Below, piece after piece: positions 24,590-32,294 of a stretch of 48,045 nucleotides of DNA; position 1 is the stretch's first letter; each line of letters begins with the position of its first letter. Both the position numbers and the translations under genes were made by a program. The stretch comes from Magnetococcales bacterium HCHbin5 (GTDB lineage: Bacteria; Pseudomonadota; Magnetococcia; Magnetococcales; Magnetaquicoccaceae). The stretch lies in the NCBI GenBank assembly GCA_002753505.1, contig PEAG01000021.1, positions 1-48,045 on the forward strand, in the 5' to 3' direction. A model generated the notes under the pieces. That model searched no databases. It was not told the DNA's origin and worked only from the letters and a program-made list of their open reading frames with translations.

Positions 24590-24952
24590 GAGTATATTCC
24601 TTTTTACACCGTATGGGATCGGGCGTTTTCTTTTGAGTCGTTTGCCGGCGATTGTGGAAGGACTGGGGCTGTCAGCCTTTTCACTGACGAGACAGTCGCG
24701 CCTGCCGTTGGCAGTATAATAAACATACCCGTTTTTATCACGATATTTTTTATCTGCCGGTTCGGACAAGCCGGTTTACACATGTGGAGCTTTGCCCCTG
24801 CACCCTGCACTTATGGGACTTCACTCCTGAAACCCGAAGGGTTCCGGTCTAATATTTTGCTTTTTCGGACAAAACGGATGTAGAATGCATGCTGCGGGCT
24901 GGTCAAATTTGATTCGTCCATCGGAACCACACTGTTTGCAGAGATGATCCCC
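24590..24952. other. Intergenic region, no gene seen
   Basis: Divergent gap of 363 bp between the glycine-zipper gene and the DAC-like gene. It should contain both promoters, but no convincing -35/-10 pair stands out. A short piece of the foldback repeat (gctttgcccctgcacc at about 24789) is present. Confidence 0.5.
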
Positions 24953-26281
24953 ATGAGTGAATACATCGAGTTTGCCGATACGCCATTTGTCGGCCACTTT
25001 GCAGACAAACACGGTCAGACCACCAAAAAATTCCTGGAATCATTTTTGCAGTGCAAAGTCTCCATTGTCTTCTCGCCGGCGGAAGAGTTTGAAAGCCAGT
25101 ACGATGCCGATATTTTTGAAACCCCCGAAAATGCCGTTTATGAAGTGAATGCAACCACTTTATTAATCGCTGTTCATCCGCCCGCATACTATGACAAGAG
25201 GGTTTCATTGGGGCTGGTCTTGAATGAACCCCTCATTGCGCTGCCACCCCTCACATTGGCAGAGATCATTGCCAATCAAATGCTTAAACGACTCAAACAC
25301 GCCATGCTGTACAACTTTGACGTCGATCTGCAATTTTTTGGCAAGCAATTGATATTGGACACCATTGTGGAATATATTTCCAGGGGGGGCTTTAACAAAC
25401 ATAACATAAAATTTGCGATCGATCTGTTCACCAGCTTGCGCACCATGACCTTTGAAAACCGTCTGTTCAACACCGGTCTGATCATCACCAAATCACACCG
25501 CACCTACCGGACAGAATCGAGAAAGTGCCGGTTGATCCCCCTGACGGATCCCATTTTCCTGATGCCCAACTTGCGGTATGAAAACAGATTCTGGTACCTG
25601 GCAGACGGATCCTCCTGTTTTTATGTGTGCGACAGAAATTTAAAAATAAACAGCATGTTTTTCTTTGATGAGCCCCCCTCGTCCATCACCTCCATCTCTA
25701 CCAATTTCTTGAAAAAATCCTTGCATGAACAGGATATCGCCTTTCGTACCATCAATGGCAGGGAGATGGTCATCGTCGAGGCGACCGGGGAGGAGTTTAC
25801 CTACTCCGTCGGTCAGTGGCATTTTCGCGACTACAACCTGATCAAAAAGGCGATGCGCACACTGTTGCCCGCCTTTACCCAGGCGGCGATCGATGCCCTG
25901 CTGGAGTTGACATGGTCGTTGATGGCCAGTCGCCACGGCTCCCTGATCTGGATTCCTGAACGGGAAGAGGATATTGACCAGATGACCCTGCGCTCCACCC
26001 GGCTCTGGGAGCAGGATGTCTCGATTGACGATGAAAGATACCACGGTTTGATCCATCGTTTGGCCTCCAGTGACGGGGCTTTGATCCTTTCACAGGACTC
26101 GCGCATCCACCGTTTTGGTGGCATTGCCAATCTCTCCACCCTCGTGCAGGGGGATACCCAAATTACCGGCTCCGGTGAATTGGCGGCCCAATTTTTATCC
26201 CATTCGGGGGTTGTGATTAAAATATCGCAAGATGGCAGCGGCAGCGTCTATGCCAACCATAAAATGCGATGGAAACTGTGA
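24953..26281 (+). CDS. Protein with C-terminal diadenylate-cyclase-like (DisA_N/DAC-related) domain
   Basis: 442 aa. The N-terminal 310 residues match nothing I recognise. The last 120 resemble a DAC domain: ASRHGSLIWIPE corresponds to the first core strand, LASSDGALILSQDSRIHRFGGIA carries the DGA motif and following strand, and SHSGVVIKISQDGSGSVYA matches the closing segment. The second catalytic motif, GTRHR in true cyclases, reads GSGEL, so c-di-AMP synthesis is doubtful; it may instead bind a nucleotide or act as a sensor, as proposed for DAC-related families of unknown function. No signal peptide or membrane span. An alternative ATG lies three codons upstream. It is followed by a secreted hydrolase gene 99 nt downstream. 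Confidence 0.65.
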   Translation: MSEYIEFADTPFVGHFADKHGQTTKKFLESFLQCKVSIVFSPAEEFESQYDADIFETPENAVYEVNATTLLIAVHPPAYYDKRVSLGLVLNEPLIALPPLTLAEIIANQMLKRLKHAMLYNFDVDLQFFGKQLILDTIVEYISRGGFNKHNIKFAIDLFTSLRTMTFENRLFNTGLIITKSHRTYRTESRKCRLIPLTDPIFLMPNLRYENRFWYLADGSSCFYVCDRNLKINSMFFFDEPPSSITSISTNFLKKSLHEQDIAFRTINGREMVIVEATGEEFTYSVGQWHFRDYNLIKKAMRTLLPAFTQAAIDALLELTWSLMASRHGSLIWIPEREEDIDQMTLRSTRLWEQDVSIDDERYHGLIHRLASSDGALILSQDSRIHRFGGIANLSTLVQGDTQITGSGELAAQFLSHSGVVIKISQDGSGSVYANHKMRWKL

Positions 26282-26380: not shown

Positions 26381-27205
26381 ATGAAAAAATGGATAAGGCT
26401 GTTGTTTGTACTTGGCTTTATGGGTGTTGTTCTGGAAGCTCAAGCCAATGTGCTGGTCTTGGCCCACGGCTATTTGAGTGATGCCAGTGCCTGGGAAGGC
26501 AGCGGTATCGCCGCTCAGTTGGAGCAAAACGGTTGGCACCGGGCTGGTATTCTGATTACCGGTCCTGCCGGGGTGCGGATGGTCCCGGGTGCCGGGCAGG
26601 CTGCCAACAACAAGGTCTATCTCGCCGAACTCCCTTCCACTGCCCCTTTGGGGATCCAGGCAGATCATCTGCAGGCCATGCTGCATTTCCTGACTCTCCG
26701 CCATCCAAAGGAAAAAATAGTCCTTGTGGGTCATTCGGTGGGCGGTGTGGTCGCCCGTTTGGTGTTGGTGCGCAGTCAGGTGCCCAATGTGGCTGCCCTG
26801 GTCACCATCGCCTCACCCCATCTGGGCACCCCGTTGGCGGAAGAGGCTCTGGATGCCACCTCCAGCATTTGGCCGGTTGAGGTGTTCAAGGATATTTTTG
26901 GTGGCAGTGGCTATCAAACCCTGAAATATTCCAGGGGGCTCTATATCGATATTGTCCGGCCCTGGCCCGGCTCTCTGCTCCACTGGTTGAACAGACAGCC
27001 TCATCCAGCGATCAAGTATATCTCCGTCGTGCGCAACCGGCCTTTTGTGCTCTGGGGTGATCTGCTGGTACCGGGTGCCAGTCAAGACATGAACAATGTC
27101 CCCCCCGTGGCTGGTCGATCCACCCTTTACACGACGGCCAGCGGTCATGTACTCAATCCGGGAGATGGCATGTTGTTGGTGCAAATTCTGAAAGAGTTTG
27201 GCTGA
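26381..27205 (+). CDS. Exported alpha/beta hydrolase (lipase/esterase-like)
   Basis: 274 aa. N-terminal signal peptide (RLLFVLGFMGVVLEAQA, cleaved before NVLVLAHG). The hydrolase core has HGYLSDASAW (oxyanion region), VLVGHSVGGVVARL (nucleophile Ser elbow GHSVG), TIASPHLGTPLAEEAL and a late His in TASGHVLNPGD, giving a plausible triad. This pattern resembles PGAP1/lipase-like esterases. Start at 26381 is fixed by the signal peptide and AGAGGAGA upstream. Substrate unknown. The region after it is filled with repeats. Confidence 0.8.
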   Translation: MKKWIRLLFVLGFMGVVLEAQANVLVLAHGYLSDASAWEGSGIAAQLEQNGWHRAGILITGPAGVRMVPGAGQAANNKVYLAELPSTAPLGIQADHLQAMLHFLTLRHPKEKIVLVGHSVGGVVARLVLVRSQVPNVAALVTIASPHLGTPLAEEALDATSSIWPVEVFKDIFGGSGYQTLKYSRGLYIDIVRPWPGSLLHWLNRQPHPAIKYISVVRNRPFVLWGDLLVPGASQDMNNVPPVAGRSTLYTTASGHVLNPGDGMLLVQILKEFG

Positions 27206-27255
27206 CAAGGCTGACGGGACAAAGGGGTTGCGTACACTCACTTGGTTGCGATCCC

Positions 27256-27536
27256 TTTAAACGATTGCAGGGGTCTGGGGACCGTCACGGTCCCCAGTGG
27301 GGTGCAGGGGCAAAGCCCCATATGCGCTAACAGGATTGCGGTCTTCCTTTAAACGATTGCAGGGGCCTGGGGACCGTCACGGTCCCCAGTGGGGTGCAGG
27401 GGCAAAGCCCCACATATGCGCTAACAGGATTGCGGTCTTCCTTTAAACGATTGCAGGGGCCTGGGGACCGTCACGGTCCCCAGTGGGGTGCAGGGGCAAA
27501 GCCCCATATGCGCTAACAGGATTGCGGTCTTCCTTT
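27256..27536. repeat. Three tandem copies of the short foldback unit
   Basis: Near-identical units start at 27256, 27348 and 27442 (periods 92, 94 and 92 bp), and a fourth repeats the start at 27534 as the left end of element E3. Each reads tttaaacgattgcagggg, the GGGGACCGTCACGGTCCCC hairpin, gtggggtgcaggggcaaagcccc, then atatgcgctaacaggattgcggtcttcc. Unit 2 has a 2-bp insertion (cacatatg). The near-identity suggests recent amplification. Confidence 0.9.
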
Positions 27537-27994
27537 AAACGATTGCAGGGGTCTGGGGACCGTCACGGTCCCCAGTGGGGTGCAGGGGCAAAGCCCCTGC
27601 ATGAACGGCGCGTTTTCCCAAAGCCAATTTTCGCAGAAAATTGGCGCAACGCGCCCAAAACCGCCCCGCAGGGGCGACCTTGGGAGGGCGGCAGCCCGAC
27701 CCGAACGGTTATGTTATGGAAAATATTTGGATAAAAAACCAGAACCTTCGGGTATTCAGCTTTTTGTTTAAACATGAGGCCAGGAACGGTTCCTTTTCCA
27801 AGCCATCCCATATTTTGCCCGCTCTCAGTCGGGCTGCCGCCCTCCAGCAGTGCCCCTGCGGGGCGTTTTGGGCGCGCTGCGCCCATTTGCTGCGCAAATG
27901 GGCTTCGTTGAAAGCGCGCCCGTTCATGCAGGGGCTTTGCCCCTGCACCCCACTGGGGACCGTGACGGTCCCCAGGCCCCTGCAATAGTTTTAA
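27537..27994. repeat. Foldback element E3 (complete)
   Basis: Complete element of about 458 bp in the opposite orientation to E2. The left arm continues into cgaacggttatgttatgg (side X); the right arm, read on the minus strand, into gagagcgggcaaaa (side Y). Both arms share the outer hairpins, the fold around GCCAATTTTC or GCCCATTTGC, and GGGCGGCAGCCCGAC. Borders are taaacgattgcagggg and cccctgcaatagtttta. It lies between the convergent hydrolase and dioxygenase genes. No protein is encoded. Confidence 0.85.
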
Positions 27995-28093
27995 AAGATT
28001 AGAAAAAGCATGGTACGGTAAAAAGGCCAATGCAATCGTTTTAAAAGATTAGAAAAAGCATGGGCGTGGTCGCGCGTATGGGGCTTTGCCCCT

Positions 28094-28132
28094 GCACCCC
28101 CCCAGGGAGCGTGACGCTCCCTGGGGGGGTGC
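28094..28132. repeat. Perfect 19-bp hairpin with 1-nt loop
   Basis: GCACCCCCCCAGGGAGCGT and ACGCTCCCTGGGGGGGTGC pair around a single G. The context (ggggctttgcccctgcacc before, gtgcaataattt after) shows it is a variant short unit of the repeat family in which both halves of the hairpin have changed together, so pairing was conserved. It probably also acts as a transcription stop between the convergent genes. Confidence 0.8.
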
Positions 28133-28166
28133 AATAATTTGAAAAGATTAGACCGCCAGAGTTGCG

Positions 28167-29054
28167 CTAAACCGTTGGCAAACGATCAAAAAACCGCGCC
28201 CGATACAACAGTCGAACAGCCCCATCCGGCAAATCCTGGAAAGCCTCCCGGGTGTGCAAAAGATTGTTGCTGATCAAACCCCACCCCGCCTCCAGACGAC
28301 CCTGGAAAAAACCGGCCGCCGGACGACTCAATACATCCCGTATGGCAGCAACCGCCCGCCGGGTCGCCTCATCCGCACGCCAGCGAATGCTCTTGGTTCG
28401 ATTGGTAAAACGCATATGCAGGTGACCCGCCTCCGTTACCAGAAAAACCGGCCCGGGACGTTCAGGACGAGCCACCAGACCCGCTGCATCCAAACGGGCC
28501 GGAATGGTCATCACATCCGTTACCATCAGATCGCGAATAATCTCCGGGTTCTGGTCCCGCAGAGAGATATACACCATCTCATGATCCCACAGCGCGTTCT
28601 CCCCCCCGGTATGGGCAGGCCGTTCACAATAGAGGCACAAGCTCTGTACCGGTTTATGGAATGGATTATAATACCCATCCGTGTGCCAACCGATGGCGGC
28701 AGCCCGATAAGGAATATAATGGGCAAATGGGGCAAAAGCCGATCCCCCCGGCGTCAAGGCCGACAACCCCTCCTCCCCCGCTCCCAAATTGAGATCCAGA
28801 TCGCGAATACCCAACTGGCTGGTGATGGCTGGCAGAGGGTTCTCCCGTACCCCCTGGGGGTCTGTCAACCGGAAAACAGCCATGTTCGCCTTGGTACAAC
28901 GGGATAAAATGGCCTCCTTCTCACCTGCGGTCAGAGCAAAAGGATCCTTGATCTCTACCAACAGCTCACCGAGCGTCGTCGGATAACCAGCCAGTTTGTT
29001 CTGCTTCCAGGTTTGATAAGCCGCCTCATTGTTCAAGTCGAATGGTGTGGTCAT
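28167..29054 (-). CDS. TauD/TfdA-like Fe(II)/2-oxoglutarate dioxygenase
   Basis: About 295 aa, cytoplasmic. The iron ligands are in GWHTDGYYNP (HxD) and the distal LLHTREAF (His), and the 2OG-binding Arg is likely in GAVRLLYRARFF. ENALWDHEMVYISLRDQNPE is typical of the family lid. The substrate is unknown; relatives act on taurine, gamma-butyrobetaine and other small acids. The start at 29054 (MTTPFDLNNEAAYQ) leaves a hydrophobic upstream extension untranslated. It follows dsrL on the same strand, but a strong terminator at 29161-29203 separates them, so it is probably not part of the dsr transcript. Confidence 0.85.
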   Translation of the reverse strand: MTTPFDLNNEAAYQTWKQNKLAGYPTTLGELLVEIKDPFALTAGEKEAILSRCTKANMAVFRLTDPQGVRENPLPAITSQLGIRDLDLNLGAGEEGLSALTPGGSAFAPFAHYIPYRAAAIGWHTDGYYNPFHKPVQSLCLYCERPAHTGGENALWDHEMVYISLRDQNPEIIRDLMVTDVMTIPARLDAAGLVARPERPGPVFLVTEAGHLHMRFTNRTKSIRWRADEATRRAVAAIRDVLSRPAAGFFQGRLEAGWGLISNNLLHTREAFQDLPDGAVRLLYRARFFDRLPTV

Positions 29055-29160
29055 TGATGAAGTCCAATGTTGAAGTGAATAAGAAAAAAACAGAGAAAGG
29101 TAAAAGCAGATGGCCCGCCGATGAAAAACCACAACCCGTCAAATCAGCGACGAGCTGTTA

Positions 29161-29203
29161 AAAAAAAAAAAGGCAGGAGCGGGAAAATCCACACTCCTGC
29201 CCG
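29161..29203 (-). terminator. Intrinsic terminator after dsrL
   Basis: On the minus strand, GGCAGGAG (29201-29194) pairs with CTCCTGCC (29179-29172), followed by a run of at least eleven T. It lies 22 nt after dsrL and ends the dsrABL transcript. Confidence 0.9.
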
Positions 29204-29224
29204 TTACATCCACAACTCAACCCA

Positions 29225-31105
29225 CTACAGACCCATGCCCATCTGAATATACGCACACGGACAAGACTCCGCACAAACATGACAACCGTTACAACGGGTA
29301 TAGTCGGTAAACATGACCTGCCCCTGCGGCCGTTTCAAATCGCGATGAATGGTCTCTCTGGGACAGAAAATCCGACACTGATCACACGCAAAACAGAGCC
29401 CGCAACTCATGCAACGCGCAGCCTCCGCCTTGGCCTGCTCTGGAGTAATGGTGAAGGTGGTCTCCTTGAACCCTTCAATCGCCTCCCGTACATCCAACTG
29501 CTTCTCTTCGTTGCGCGGTGCCGGCTTGTAAAAATCCAACCGCATCTCCTCAACCCGCACCGACTTGGCCTTGGACGGCGGCTGATGGCGTCCACCTTTC
29601 AGGAAAGTGTGCATGGAACGGGCCGCCTGACGGCCCTCACCAACAGAACGGGTGGAAATACCCAACCCCAACACATCACCACCCGCAAAAACACCCGGCT
29701 GGCTGGTCTCATGCGAACTGTTGGCCGAAATCCAACCCCACTTGTTGGCCAGATCCGCCATCCCCTCTTCCAACTCAGGCACCTGCCCGATGCCCATGAT
29801 CACCGTATCACAGGGAACGGTAAACTCGGAACCCGGAATCGGCTCAGGCCGACGCCGACCCGACTTGTCCGGCGCACCCAACTGCATGCGAATACAACGC
29901 GCGGCAACCGCACGCCCACCCTCGGTGATCAACTCCACCGGGGCCGCCAGCAGCTCAAAATTGATCCCTTCATGCATCGCCTCATCCACATCCTTGGCGA
30001 TGGCCGGCATCTCATCCTTGGTACGCCGATAGAGAACAGTCACCTCAGCCTTGCTTGCCACACGCCGCACAATACGGGCTGAATCAAAGGCCGTCTTCTC
30101 GGCAGAAAGTACCACCTCTTCCCGCCGGGCCTCCTGGTCAATGGCCTCCCGCGCCGCATCATAACGGGCATCATCACCCGAAGCTTCCGCTGCCAACAAC
30201 TCCGCCTGCAAACGCAAAGAGACACGGGCCGCATCCATGGCACTGTCACCACCGCCGATGACAATCACCTGCCTGCCAATCTCCACCTTGGCCCCGGTAT
30301 TGACCCGATTCAGAAAACCCGCCGCCGTAAAAACATTGGCAGAATCCTCACCAGGAATACCCATGTTGCTGCCCTTGTGGGCACCCAACGCCAAATAGAC
30401 CGCCGCATACTCCTTGCGAATCTGCTCGAAAGAGATGTCGCGACCGACACGGGTGTTGCACTTCAACTCCACCCCCAGATCCAGAATATTCTGGATCTCT
30501 GCATCCAAAACGGCATCCGGCAACCGATACGACGGGATACCATACCGAAGCATGCCACCCGCCTTTTCGAAGGTCTCAAAAATGGTGACCGGATAACCCC
30601 GGCGCGCCATCTGGTAGGCACAGGAGAGCCCGGACGGACCGGAACCGATGACCGCAATTTTCTGCGTGCGCTGCACGTCGGTCAGCTTTTTCAACTTCAG
30701 CTGCCGCCGCAGGCCGTGATCGCCGATAAAACGCTCCATATTGTTGATGGCAACCGCGCCATCTTCCTTGTGCTGCCGATTGCACCCCGATTCACAGGGG
30801 TGAGGGCAGATCCGCCCGTGGGTGGCGGGCAGAGGATTTTTGTCTGTCAAAATTTCCCAGGCCTGATCCAACGCCTCATCCTGGGACTTCTTGTACTGCC
30901 CTGCCTGCGCAATGACAGTCAAATAACCGCGAATGTCCTCACTGCTGGGACAAGCATCCTTGCAGGGGGGCAAACGCTGGACATAGGTGGGACACTTCCA
31001 GCTGCTGCCATTCCGCACAACAACCTCTTCTGCGACAGCCTTGCGCAAACTCGGCTCAAGGTCTTGCCTGGTAAAATCCTTGGTCAGGATAGTTGGTACT
31101 AACAT
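29225..31105 (-). CDS. dsrL: DsrL, NAD(P)-linked flavoprotein partner of dissimilatory sulfite reductase
   Basis: 626 aa. An N-terminal Cys-rich iron-sulfur domain (CPTYVQRLPPCKDACP, GRICPHPCESGCNR), an FAD-binding Rossmann fold (VIGSGPSGLSCAYQMARRG), an NAD(P) fold (VIVIGGGDSAMDAARV) and the GVFAGGDV flavin segment are as in small-subunit glutamate synthase relatives. The C-terminus adds a ferredoxin-like domain (CMSCGLCFACDQCRIFCP and CNGCHVCAESCPCAYI), the DsrL hallmark. In sulfur oxidisers DsrL takes electrons from DsrAB to NAD(P). A helical Ala/Glu-rich insertion of about 50 residues follows SAMDAARV. It is the third gene of dsrA-dsrB-dsrL, 59 nt after dsrB. Confidence 0.95.
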   Translation of the reverse strand: MLVPTILTKDFTRQDLEPSLRKAVAEEVVVRNGSSWKCPTYVQRLPPCKDACPSSEDIRGYLTVIAQAGQYKKSQDEALDQAWEILTDKNPLPATHGRICPHPCESGCNRQHKEDGAVAINNMERFIGDHGLRRQLKLKKLTDVQRTQKIAVIGSGPSGLSCAYQMARRGYPVTIFETFEKAGGMLRYGIPSYRLPDAVLDAEIQNILDLGVELKCNTRVGRDISFEQIRKEYAAVYLALGAHKGSNMGIPGEDSANVFTAAGFLNRVNTGAKVEIGRQVIVIGGGDSAMDAARVSLRLQAELLAAEASGDDARYDAAREAIDQEARREEVVLSAEKTAFDSARIVRRVASKAEVTVLYRRTKDEMPAIAKDVDEAMHEGINFELLAAPVELITEGGRAVAARCIRMQLGAPDKSGRRRPEPIPGSEFTVPCDTVIMGIGQVPELEEGMADLANKWGWISANSSHETSQPGVFAGGDVLGLGISTRSVGEGRQAARSMHTFLKGGRHQPPSKAKSVRVEEMRLDFYKPAPRNEEKQLDVREAIEGFKETTFTITPEQAKAEAARCMSCGLCFACDQCRIFCPRETIHRDLKRPQGQVMFTDYTRCNGCHVCAESCPCAYIQMGMGL

Positions 31106-31164
31106 GGATGACTCCTTCTGCCCGATTGTCTCTCGCCCAAAAACGGCCTCGTCTGCAACCCCAA

Positions 31165-32238
31165 TTACAACCGGACCATCGCGGACCGATTCAAGTTGGA
31201 CAACGCTTCCGGACTGTCGTCAATGTGGTACTTGGTGAAGGGGAAACCCGTCTTTTCAAAAAACCGCTGCCAACCGATGCGCTCAATCCACTCGCCCAGC
31301 CGTTCCCAATCCTTGCCCCCCTCCTTGTAGGCCTTGAGAATGCGTTTGATCGCATCCGAAACCTCCGGCCAACGGGGCGGATTGTTGGGAAGACCCCAGA
31401 CCGCCAACTTCATGAAAGTGGGAGCAGAACGGGCATTGGACATCTTGCCGCCCACCCAGATGGAGAGGGTGTCGGTTTGGGCATCGCGAATCTCCATGCT
31501 GGGGCATTGACCATGGCAAGCCCCGCAGTACATGCACTTCTCCTGCACAATTTGCACACTCTCCTTGCCGTTGACCACCGCCGGACGGATGGCCGCCGCC
31601 GGGCAGATAGCCACCACCTTGGGCAGCTCGCAGATCTGCATGTTGTCGTGGTTGATTCTGGGAACATGGTGATGCTGGACAATAACGGAAATATCCCCAT
31701 GACTGGCACAGTTGATCTGGCAACAGGAGCTGGAAATGTGAACCCGGTTGGGAAACGACTCCGTCTTGAACTCCTCAATCAGATCATCCATCAGAGCCTT
31801 CACCGAACCCGCCGCATCGGAACCCGGCAGGTTGCAGTGCAACCAACCCTGGGTGTGAGAAATGTTGGAGACGGAAGGCCCGGTACCACCCACCGGCCAG
31901 CCCAGACCCTGCTCCACCTCCTGGATCAAGGCATCCAGCTTGGACTCGTCCCCCAACAAAAACTCAATGTTGGAACGGGTGGTAAAGCGGACAAAGCCTT
32001 GGCAAAATTTGTCCGCCACGTCACAAACCTTCCGAACGGTATCGGCACTCATGGTCCGGGGGGAACCCGCCCGCACGGTAAACAATTTATCGCCACTCTC
32101 TGCGACATGCACAAGCACGCCAGGACGCACCCGCTCGTGGTAATCCCATTGGCCATAGTTTTTGGCCATCAAGGGATGCAGGTATTTGGTATAGTCCGGC
32201 GCACCCTGATCTCTCGGTGCCATAGCATTGTTACTCAT
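31165..32238 (-). CDS. dsrB: Dissimilatory sulfite reductase beta subunit DsrB
   Basis: 357 aa. The siroheme-[4Fe-4S] domain shows HISSSCCQINCASHGDISV, and an inserted ferredoxin domain has CPAAAIRPA and CMYCGACHGQCPSMEI. The MRAG-like KLFTVRAGSPRTMS and FTTRSNIEFLL are typical. It forms the alpha2-beta2 enzyme with DsrA in the cytoplasm, which here most likely runs oxidatively (persulfide sulfur to sulfite), as judged from dsrL and dsrEFH. It follows dsrA by 56 nt. The direction of catalysis is inferred from context. Confidence 0.97.
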   Translation of the reverse strand: MSNNAMAPRDQGAPDYTKYLHPLMAKNYGQWDYHERVRPGVLVHVAESGDKLFTVRAGSPRTMSADTVRKVCDVADKFCQGFVRFTTRSNIEFLLGDESKLDALIQEVEQGLGWPVGGTGPSVSNISHTQGWLHCNLPGSDAAGSVKALMDDLIEEFKTESFPNRVHISSSCCQINCASHGDISVIVQHHHVPRINHDNMQICELPKVVAICPAAAIRPAVVNGKESVQIVQEKCMYCGACHGQCPSMEIRDAQTDTLSIWVGGKMSNARSAPTFMKLAVWGLPNNPPRWPEVSDAIKRILKAYKEGGKDWERLGEWIERIGWQRFFEKTGFPFTKYHIDDSPEALSNLNRSAMVRL

Positions 32239-32294
32239 CGTTGATTCTCTCCAAAAAATTTATCAAGGTGCCAAGGTTAAAGGGTTGCAACGAC

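Follow-up and report, generated by a model that had tools for sequence, protein, structure and literature searches.

A Magnetococcales protein family with a diadenylate cyclase fold that keeps the DG motif and has lost RHR

DAC domains are, to our knowledge, known almost solely as c-di-AMP synthases, and Galperin 2023 is said to treat DAC domain architectures. A gene in the window (the whole 48,045-nucleotide stretch analyzed here) raises the question of what a protein does that keeps the DAC core and the DGA motif at its C-terminus but has lost RHR. We examined whether the gene is real, what its domains resemble, how its pocket differs from that of known DACs, and which genes accompany it. 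The features are collected in Table 1.

The open reading frame is a real gene. Homologues are present at full length in eight Magnetococcales genomes with 49–100% identity, comprising six of the seven genomes of the window genus (82–86%), one of 11 other genomes of the family (58%), and one further genome elsewhere in the order (49%). “Ca. Magnetaquicoccus inordinatus” UR-1 is among the nearest named relatives of the window genome. A relative with 26% identity over its full length was found in G221, an Enterobacteriaceae-like genome of another class, giving a family of nine full-length sequences without internal stops. The start at the second ATG (24953) aligns with the starts of most relatives, whereas the first ATG would give 24944–26281; the translation start is most likely 24953. 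The dN/dS of the gene within the genus was 0.05–0.07 (dS near saturation), which indicates purifying selection. That the ORF is false, or a relic in decay, would agree with the lack of any Pfam match, but this reading is contradicted by the nine intact sequences and by this dN/dS and is hardly credible.

The family is rare. No further members were found in 295 genomes of G221’s family or 219 of its class, and no relatives were found in IMG/VR contigs. Plasmid relatives of the window protein or the G221 relative were not found, nor were phage relatives of the G221 protein, and a search for the G221 gene in E. coli at the DNA level gave no match. BFVD yielded no viral structure match, and a PDB sequence search only chance matches.

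Table 1 Features of the DAC-like gene and its downstream neighbor in the window.
Feature	Coordinates	Strand	Basis or remark
DAC-like protein gene, 442 aa	24953..26281	+	alternative in-frame ATG at 24944
N-terminal domain, residues 12–124, weakly GAF-like alpha/beta fold	24986..25324	+	VIA
Central domain, residues ~131–293, divergent DACNH-like	25343..25831	+	hhalign; below Pfam detection
C-terminal DAC-fold domain, residues ~297–442	25841..26278	+	Foldseek, VIA, profile comparisons vs controls
DGA motif, D374-G375-A376 in SSDGAL, kept	26072..26080	+	
GSGEL at GTRHR position, G406-S-G-E-L410; G406 and G408 invariant	26168..26182	+	
SQDG (S425-Q-D-G428) at SEE(T/N)G position; invariant, common to DACNV-DAC	26225..26236	+	
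PGAP1-like alpha/beta-hydrolase, apparent signal peptide	26381..27205	+	Pfam PF07819 1e-10

The C-terminal part was compared with known structures using two AlphaFold models. The first (AlphaFold2), built from the eight Magnetococcales rows alone and without templates, had a pLDDT of 55 and a pTM of 0.38; for its residues ~283–442, DACs were the only structural matches (Foldseek E 2.6e-5; VIA Z up to 14.4). With the G221 row added (nine rows), the second model reached pLDDT 80.9 and pTM 0.82, and its forty best VIA entries were all CdaA, CdaS, CdaM/DacM or DisA with Z 11.7–14.7, against 6.7 for the best unrelated row. Both models show a predicted DAC fold over residues ~297–442. The claim of an earlier note that the C-terminus follows the DAC core was thus borne out, with strong matches to DACs only, DisA and CdaA among them; a fold unrelated to DAC was not seen.

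A Pfam scan of the whole protein returned nothing at E ≤ 10, so that there was no match to PF02457, DACNG or DACNH (PF21750). The only curated lead was NCBIfam NF053872 (DS2_3_antiphage; E 0.0043, residues 300–394), and its score of 15.4 bits is far below the cut-off of 630. Comparison of the family profile by hhalign gave scores of 46.8 with DACNG/H-DAC, 49.2 with DACNV-DAC and 41.2 with classical CdaA, against a maximum of 31.6 among 180 column-shuffled controls, indicating kinship with DACs beyond chance. The profile search that the earlier note had recommended therefore failed as a direct match to DAC-related Pfam families but succeeded as a comparison with DAC groups, all of which scored above every control; derivation from the fold of c-di-AMP synthases, also proposed there, agrees with these three scores and with the structure matches. 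The highest score was obtained with ten DACNH-DAC proteins drawn from plasmids, E. coli and viral contigs (85.6, E 1.3e-10, 267 columns, residues 138–433, colinear), and the C-terminal domain alone scored 64.6 with them (null maximum 23.5). In a tree of DAC domains, whose deeper branching is unsure, the nine sequences formed one group with full support (100/98), apart from DACNH, DACNV and CdaA. Profile comparison shows the family to be kin of the DACNH-DAC class.

The central domain aligned with the DACNH region with an hhalign score of 24.6, reached by none of 150 shuffles (maximum 20.5), and this alignment was colinear with that of the DAC domain. No other part of the protein is as constrained (dN/dS 0.02–0.05), and, as far as profiles can tell, the center is a divergent relative of Pfam’s DACNH domain; a DACNH-like center followed by a C-terminal DAC domain makes DACNH-DAC the nearest known class. 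A 310-residue N-terminus, said earlier to be unfamiliar, is so to Pfam, but its center is DACNH-like by profile comparison. The N-terminal domain matched GAF domains of phytochrome, PDE and PelD with VIA Z 6–6.7, values within the range of chance arrangements. It is the fastest-evolving part, with 32–35% identity to two more distant Magnetococcales relatives, against 57–71% for the center. Two other assignments were rejected. Homology of the N-terminal domain to DACNG was dropped because profile comparison with DACNG gave no signal. A tandem second DAC in the center (LADGSSCFYV...IVEATGEEF) gave only noise by hhalign against the C-terminal domain and against classical and other DACs; the strong structural matches, confined to the C-terminal domain, also speak against it, and DACNH was preferred.

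The active-site motifs of the nine sequences were then compared. The DGA motif, described earlier as kept, lies at residues 374–376; DG is invariant in the family, with DGA in eight members and DGT in the ninth. The reading of GTRHR as GSGEL was likewise confirmed (G406–L410), and RHR is missing in all nine members, the variants being GSGEL, GSGGL and GTGEK. Within the DAC-fold domain, conservation peaks in the three pocket loops, where 12 of 18 positions are invariant; the remainder has 16 of 125 (Fisher p=3e-6), a contrast which indicates that the pocket is under selection. Loss of RHR combined with such conservation argues for re-tooling rather than decay. The first Arg of RHR is retained by every other DAC group examined and lost only here.

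M. tuberculosis DisA with RHR changed to AAA neither binds ATP nor makes c-di-AMP (PMC3328451), and by analogy canonical c-di-AMP synthesis by the DAC-like protein is unlikely. That the protein might still be a canonical synthase, with the function of RHR supplied elsewhere, would fit the retained fold and DGA motif. It would also fit the window’s genome, in which this is the sole DAC-like protein found. The DisA result, the replacement of SEE by SQD and the absence of RHR from every member nevertheless make such a synthase very improbable. Alternatively, the DAC domain may bind no nucleotide and serve as a dimerization or partner-binding module regulating another enzyme, as the loss of catalytic residues and the strong constraint on the central domain would allow. 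Clustering of the conserved positions in three nucleotide-pocket loops is unexpected for a mere scaffold, and we regard such a module as rather unlikely. At slightly better than an even chance, we favor a pseudo-cyclase with a nucleotide-sensing or regulatory role over a c-di-AMP synthase. This choice rests on the predicted fold, the homology to three DAC groups, the absence of RHR with DG kept, the conserved but altered pocket, purifying selection and the effect of the RHR to AAA change in DisA. It also rests on the window’s genome, where PF02457 had no match at E ≤ 0.001 and an ordinary c-di-AMP synthase is thus not recognizable.

Compared with classical CdaA, DisA and CdaS (PF02457), the protein has the same predicted fold and DGA, but RHR and SEE are replaced, PF02457 fails to recognize it, and it has neither a transmembrane nor a DNA-binding part. 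DACNV-DAC proteins (PF21751 + PF02457), present in other Magnetococcales, share DGA and the SQDG loop in the DAC domain but keep GTRH and carry a DACNV N-domain, in some cases behind REC-PAS; outside the DAC domain, no similarity between them and the DAC-like family was detectable. Those observed (L020–L027) score under or close to the PF02457 cut-off and have GTRH and the conserved SQDG; no plasmid relatives of DACNV proteins were found. A third DAC type occurs in two Magnetococcales genomes (L018:844-1920, L019:778-1731), with DGCT for DGA, R-H-A kept, an SQDG loop and an N-terminus without Pfam match.

The closest architecture is that of DACNG-DACNH-DAC, the type of DS-2_3 (NF053872), which shows the same apparent order of a DACNH-like center and a C-terminal DAC, keeps DG and departs from RHR. 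DS-2_3-type proteins carry RG[AS]R[YF]N (RG[AS]R[YF/L]N in DACNH-DAC) where the DAC-like family has GSGEL or GTGEK. Unlike them, the DAC-like protein has an N-terminal domain unrelated by profile, and no CBASS genes adjoin the window gene. DS-2 is an anti-phage system consisting of CBASS plus a DAC, and its third protein, DS-2_3, requires its predicted catalytic residues for phage defense (PMC13092281). The earlier suggestion of a DAC-related family without a role stands as to kinship with DAC-related families but not as to the missing role, since the closest class includes this defense protein. Three further sequences were observed. On an IMG/VR contig that may be a prophage, a CD-NTase-like gene lies upstream of a DACNG-DACNH-DAC gene in a DS-2-like arrangement (L082:766-4076); another IMG/VR contig encodes an 865-aa protein with DACNH-like and DAC domains and a TPR-like C-terminus (L083:2182-4779); and in G079, a very fragmented genome, a DS2_3-like gene is frame-split into DACNG-DACNH and DAC pieces (L037:550-2267).

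In G221, a gene for a DS-2-type patatin phospholipase lies 94 bp downstream of the DAC-like gene. In PADLOC its product matches PDLC00755, a CBASS effector model, at 5e-158. This patatin is closest (67.5% identity) to that of a Citrobacter operon encoding patatin, nucleotidyltransferase and DACNG/H-DAC, an order that equals the DS-2 layout and is also present in E. coli. All the operons with related patatins inspected outside G221 had a nucleotidyltransferase adjoining the patatin. In G221, inspection of 16 kb showed no remnant of a CD-NTase, and two genome-wide searches revealed no CD-NTase, the protein search being without a positive control. Transposases flank the pair of genes, so that the CD-NTase may have been lost from the locus, which we consider possible.

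The main rival to a pseudo-cyclase is an enzyme of altered chemistry that is still active as a nucleotidyl cyclase or transferase. Its triphosphate and metal contacts would be made by the GSGE loop and SQDG, and its product would be a non-canonical signal that gates an effector, for instance a phospholipase of the CBASS type. Such an enzyme is compatible with the altered pocket being strongly conserved. DS-2_3 lacks RHR and yet needs its predicted catalytic residues, so that a changed motif need not mean loss of catalysis or of function, and a phospholipase neighbor without a detected CD-NTase in G221 would fit a signal producer; both points count against a pseudo-cyclase. An active enzyme is harder to reconcile with the loss of all three RHR residues, including the first Arg; moreover, the G221 locus is a single, transposase-flanked instance whose CD-NTase search lacked a positive control, and the window genus has no defense gene next to the DAC-like gene. 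We therefore hold an altered cyclase to be unlikely, though a serious contender. Panoptes OptS (mCpol), which supplies a cyclic dinucleotide and is paired with an effector that acts on membranes (PMC12657218), resembles this model only by analogy and differs in fold and family. A bolder proposal is a two-gene defense system in which a re-tooled, RHR-less DAC makes a non-canonical signal and alone controls a CBASS-type phospholipase without a CD-NTase, the Magnetococcales members being chromosomal, vertically inherited counterparts; we consider it improbable.

The locus is stable in the window genus, with genes for a Gly-zipper protein and an NMT1_3 protein upstream and divergent. The PGAP1-like hydrolase gene begins 99 bp past the DAC-like stop codon and is a neighbor, a candidate partner at most: it adjoins the DAC-like gene in the window, L033 and L035, lies four genes away in L032, and in two genus genomes an NMT1 protein and a hybrid kinase are encoded downstream instead. 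No defense genes adjoined the DAC-like gene in the window genus, where PADLOC gave no match for the hydrolase; a CD-NTase and effector are absent next to the window gene, whose neighbors encode the NMT1_3, Gly-zipper and PGAP1-like proteins. Na/H-exchanger-TrkA-type proteins include c-di-AMP targets. The homologue in G013 lies 144 bp downstream of an antiporter of this type and that in G037 about 3 kb from another, with a HicB-type antitoxin and a CARF-RelE protein nearby. Antiporter proximity in these two genomes is suggestive of a link to K+ transport, which was not adopted because other homologues have nothing similar nearby.

Other features of the window were also noted. Between the hydrolase gene and a TauD-like gene lies a cluster of palindromic repeats of ~64–75 bp in both orientations (27251–28162; e.g. 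CTGGGGACCGTCACGGTCCCCAG; arms 93–97% identical), possibly a miniature mobile element. Genes in 28167–32244 point to a putative reverse-Dsr cluster for sulfur oxidation: they encode a TauD-like dioxygenase, a DsrL-like protein resembling NADPH-dependent glutamate synthase, and a sulfite reductase subunit similar to DsrB. An Rfam group II intron match (RF00029) is located at the contig edge (47926–48015, minus strand).

As a nucleotide-sensing or regulatory pseudo-cyclase, the DAC-like protein would be a soluble three-domain signaling protein with a weakly GAF-like N-terminal domain, a DACNH-like center and a C-terminal DAC fold. It most likely senses or handles a nucleotide other than ATP. The C-terminal domain would no longer convert ATP into c-di-AMP in the canonical way but may bind a mono-, cyclic or di-nucleotide, for which gripping a triphosphate is unnecessary, and the conserved center would relay this binding to some output. 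The family retains the fold and DG while a different motif, itself conserved, stands in place of every RHR residue; this implies that the DAC pocket has a second use, either as a sensor or as an enzyme with other chemistry. Kinship with the DAC of DS-2 and the phospholipase neighbor in G221 make the family a place to test whether DAC-like proteins in defense make, read or block nucleotide signals.
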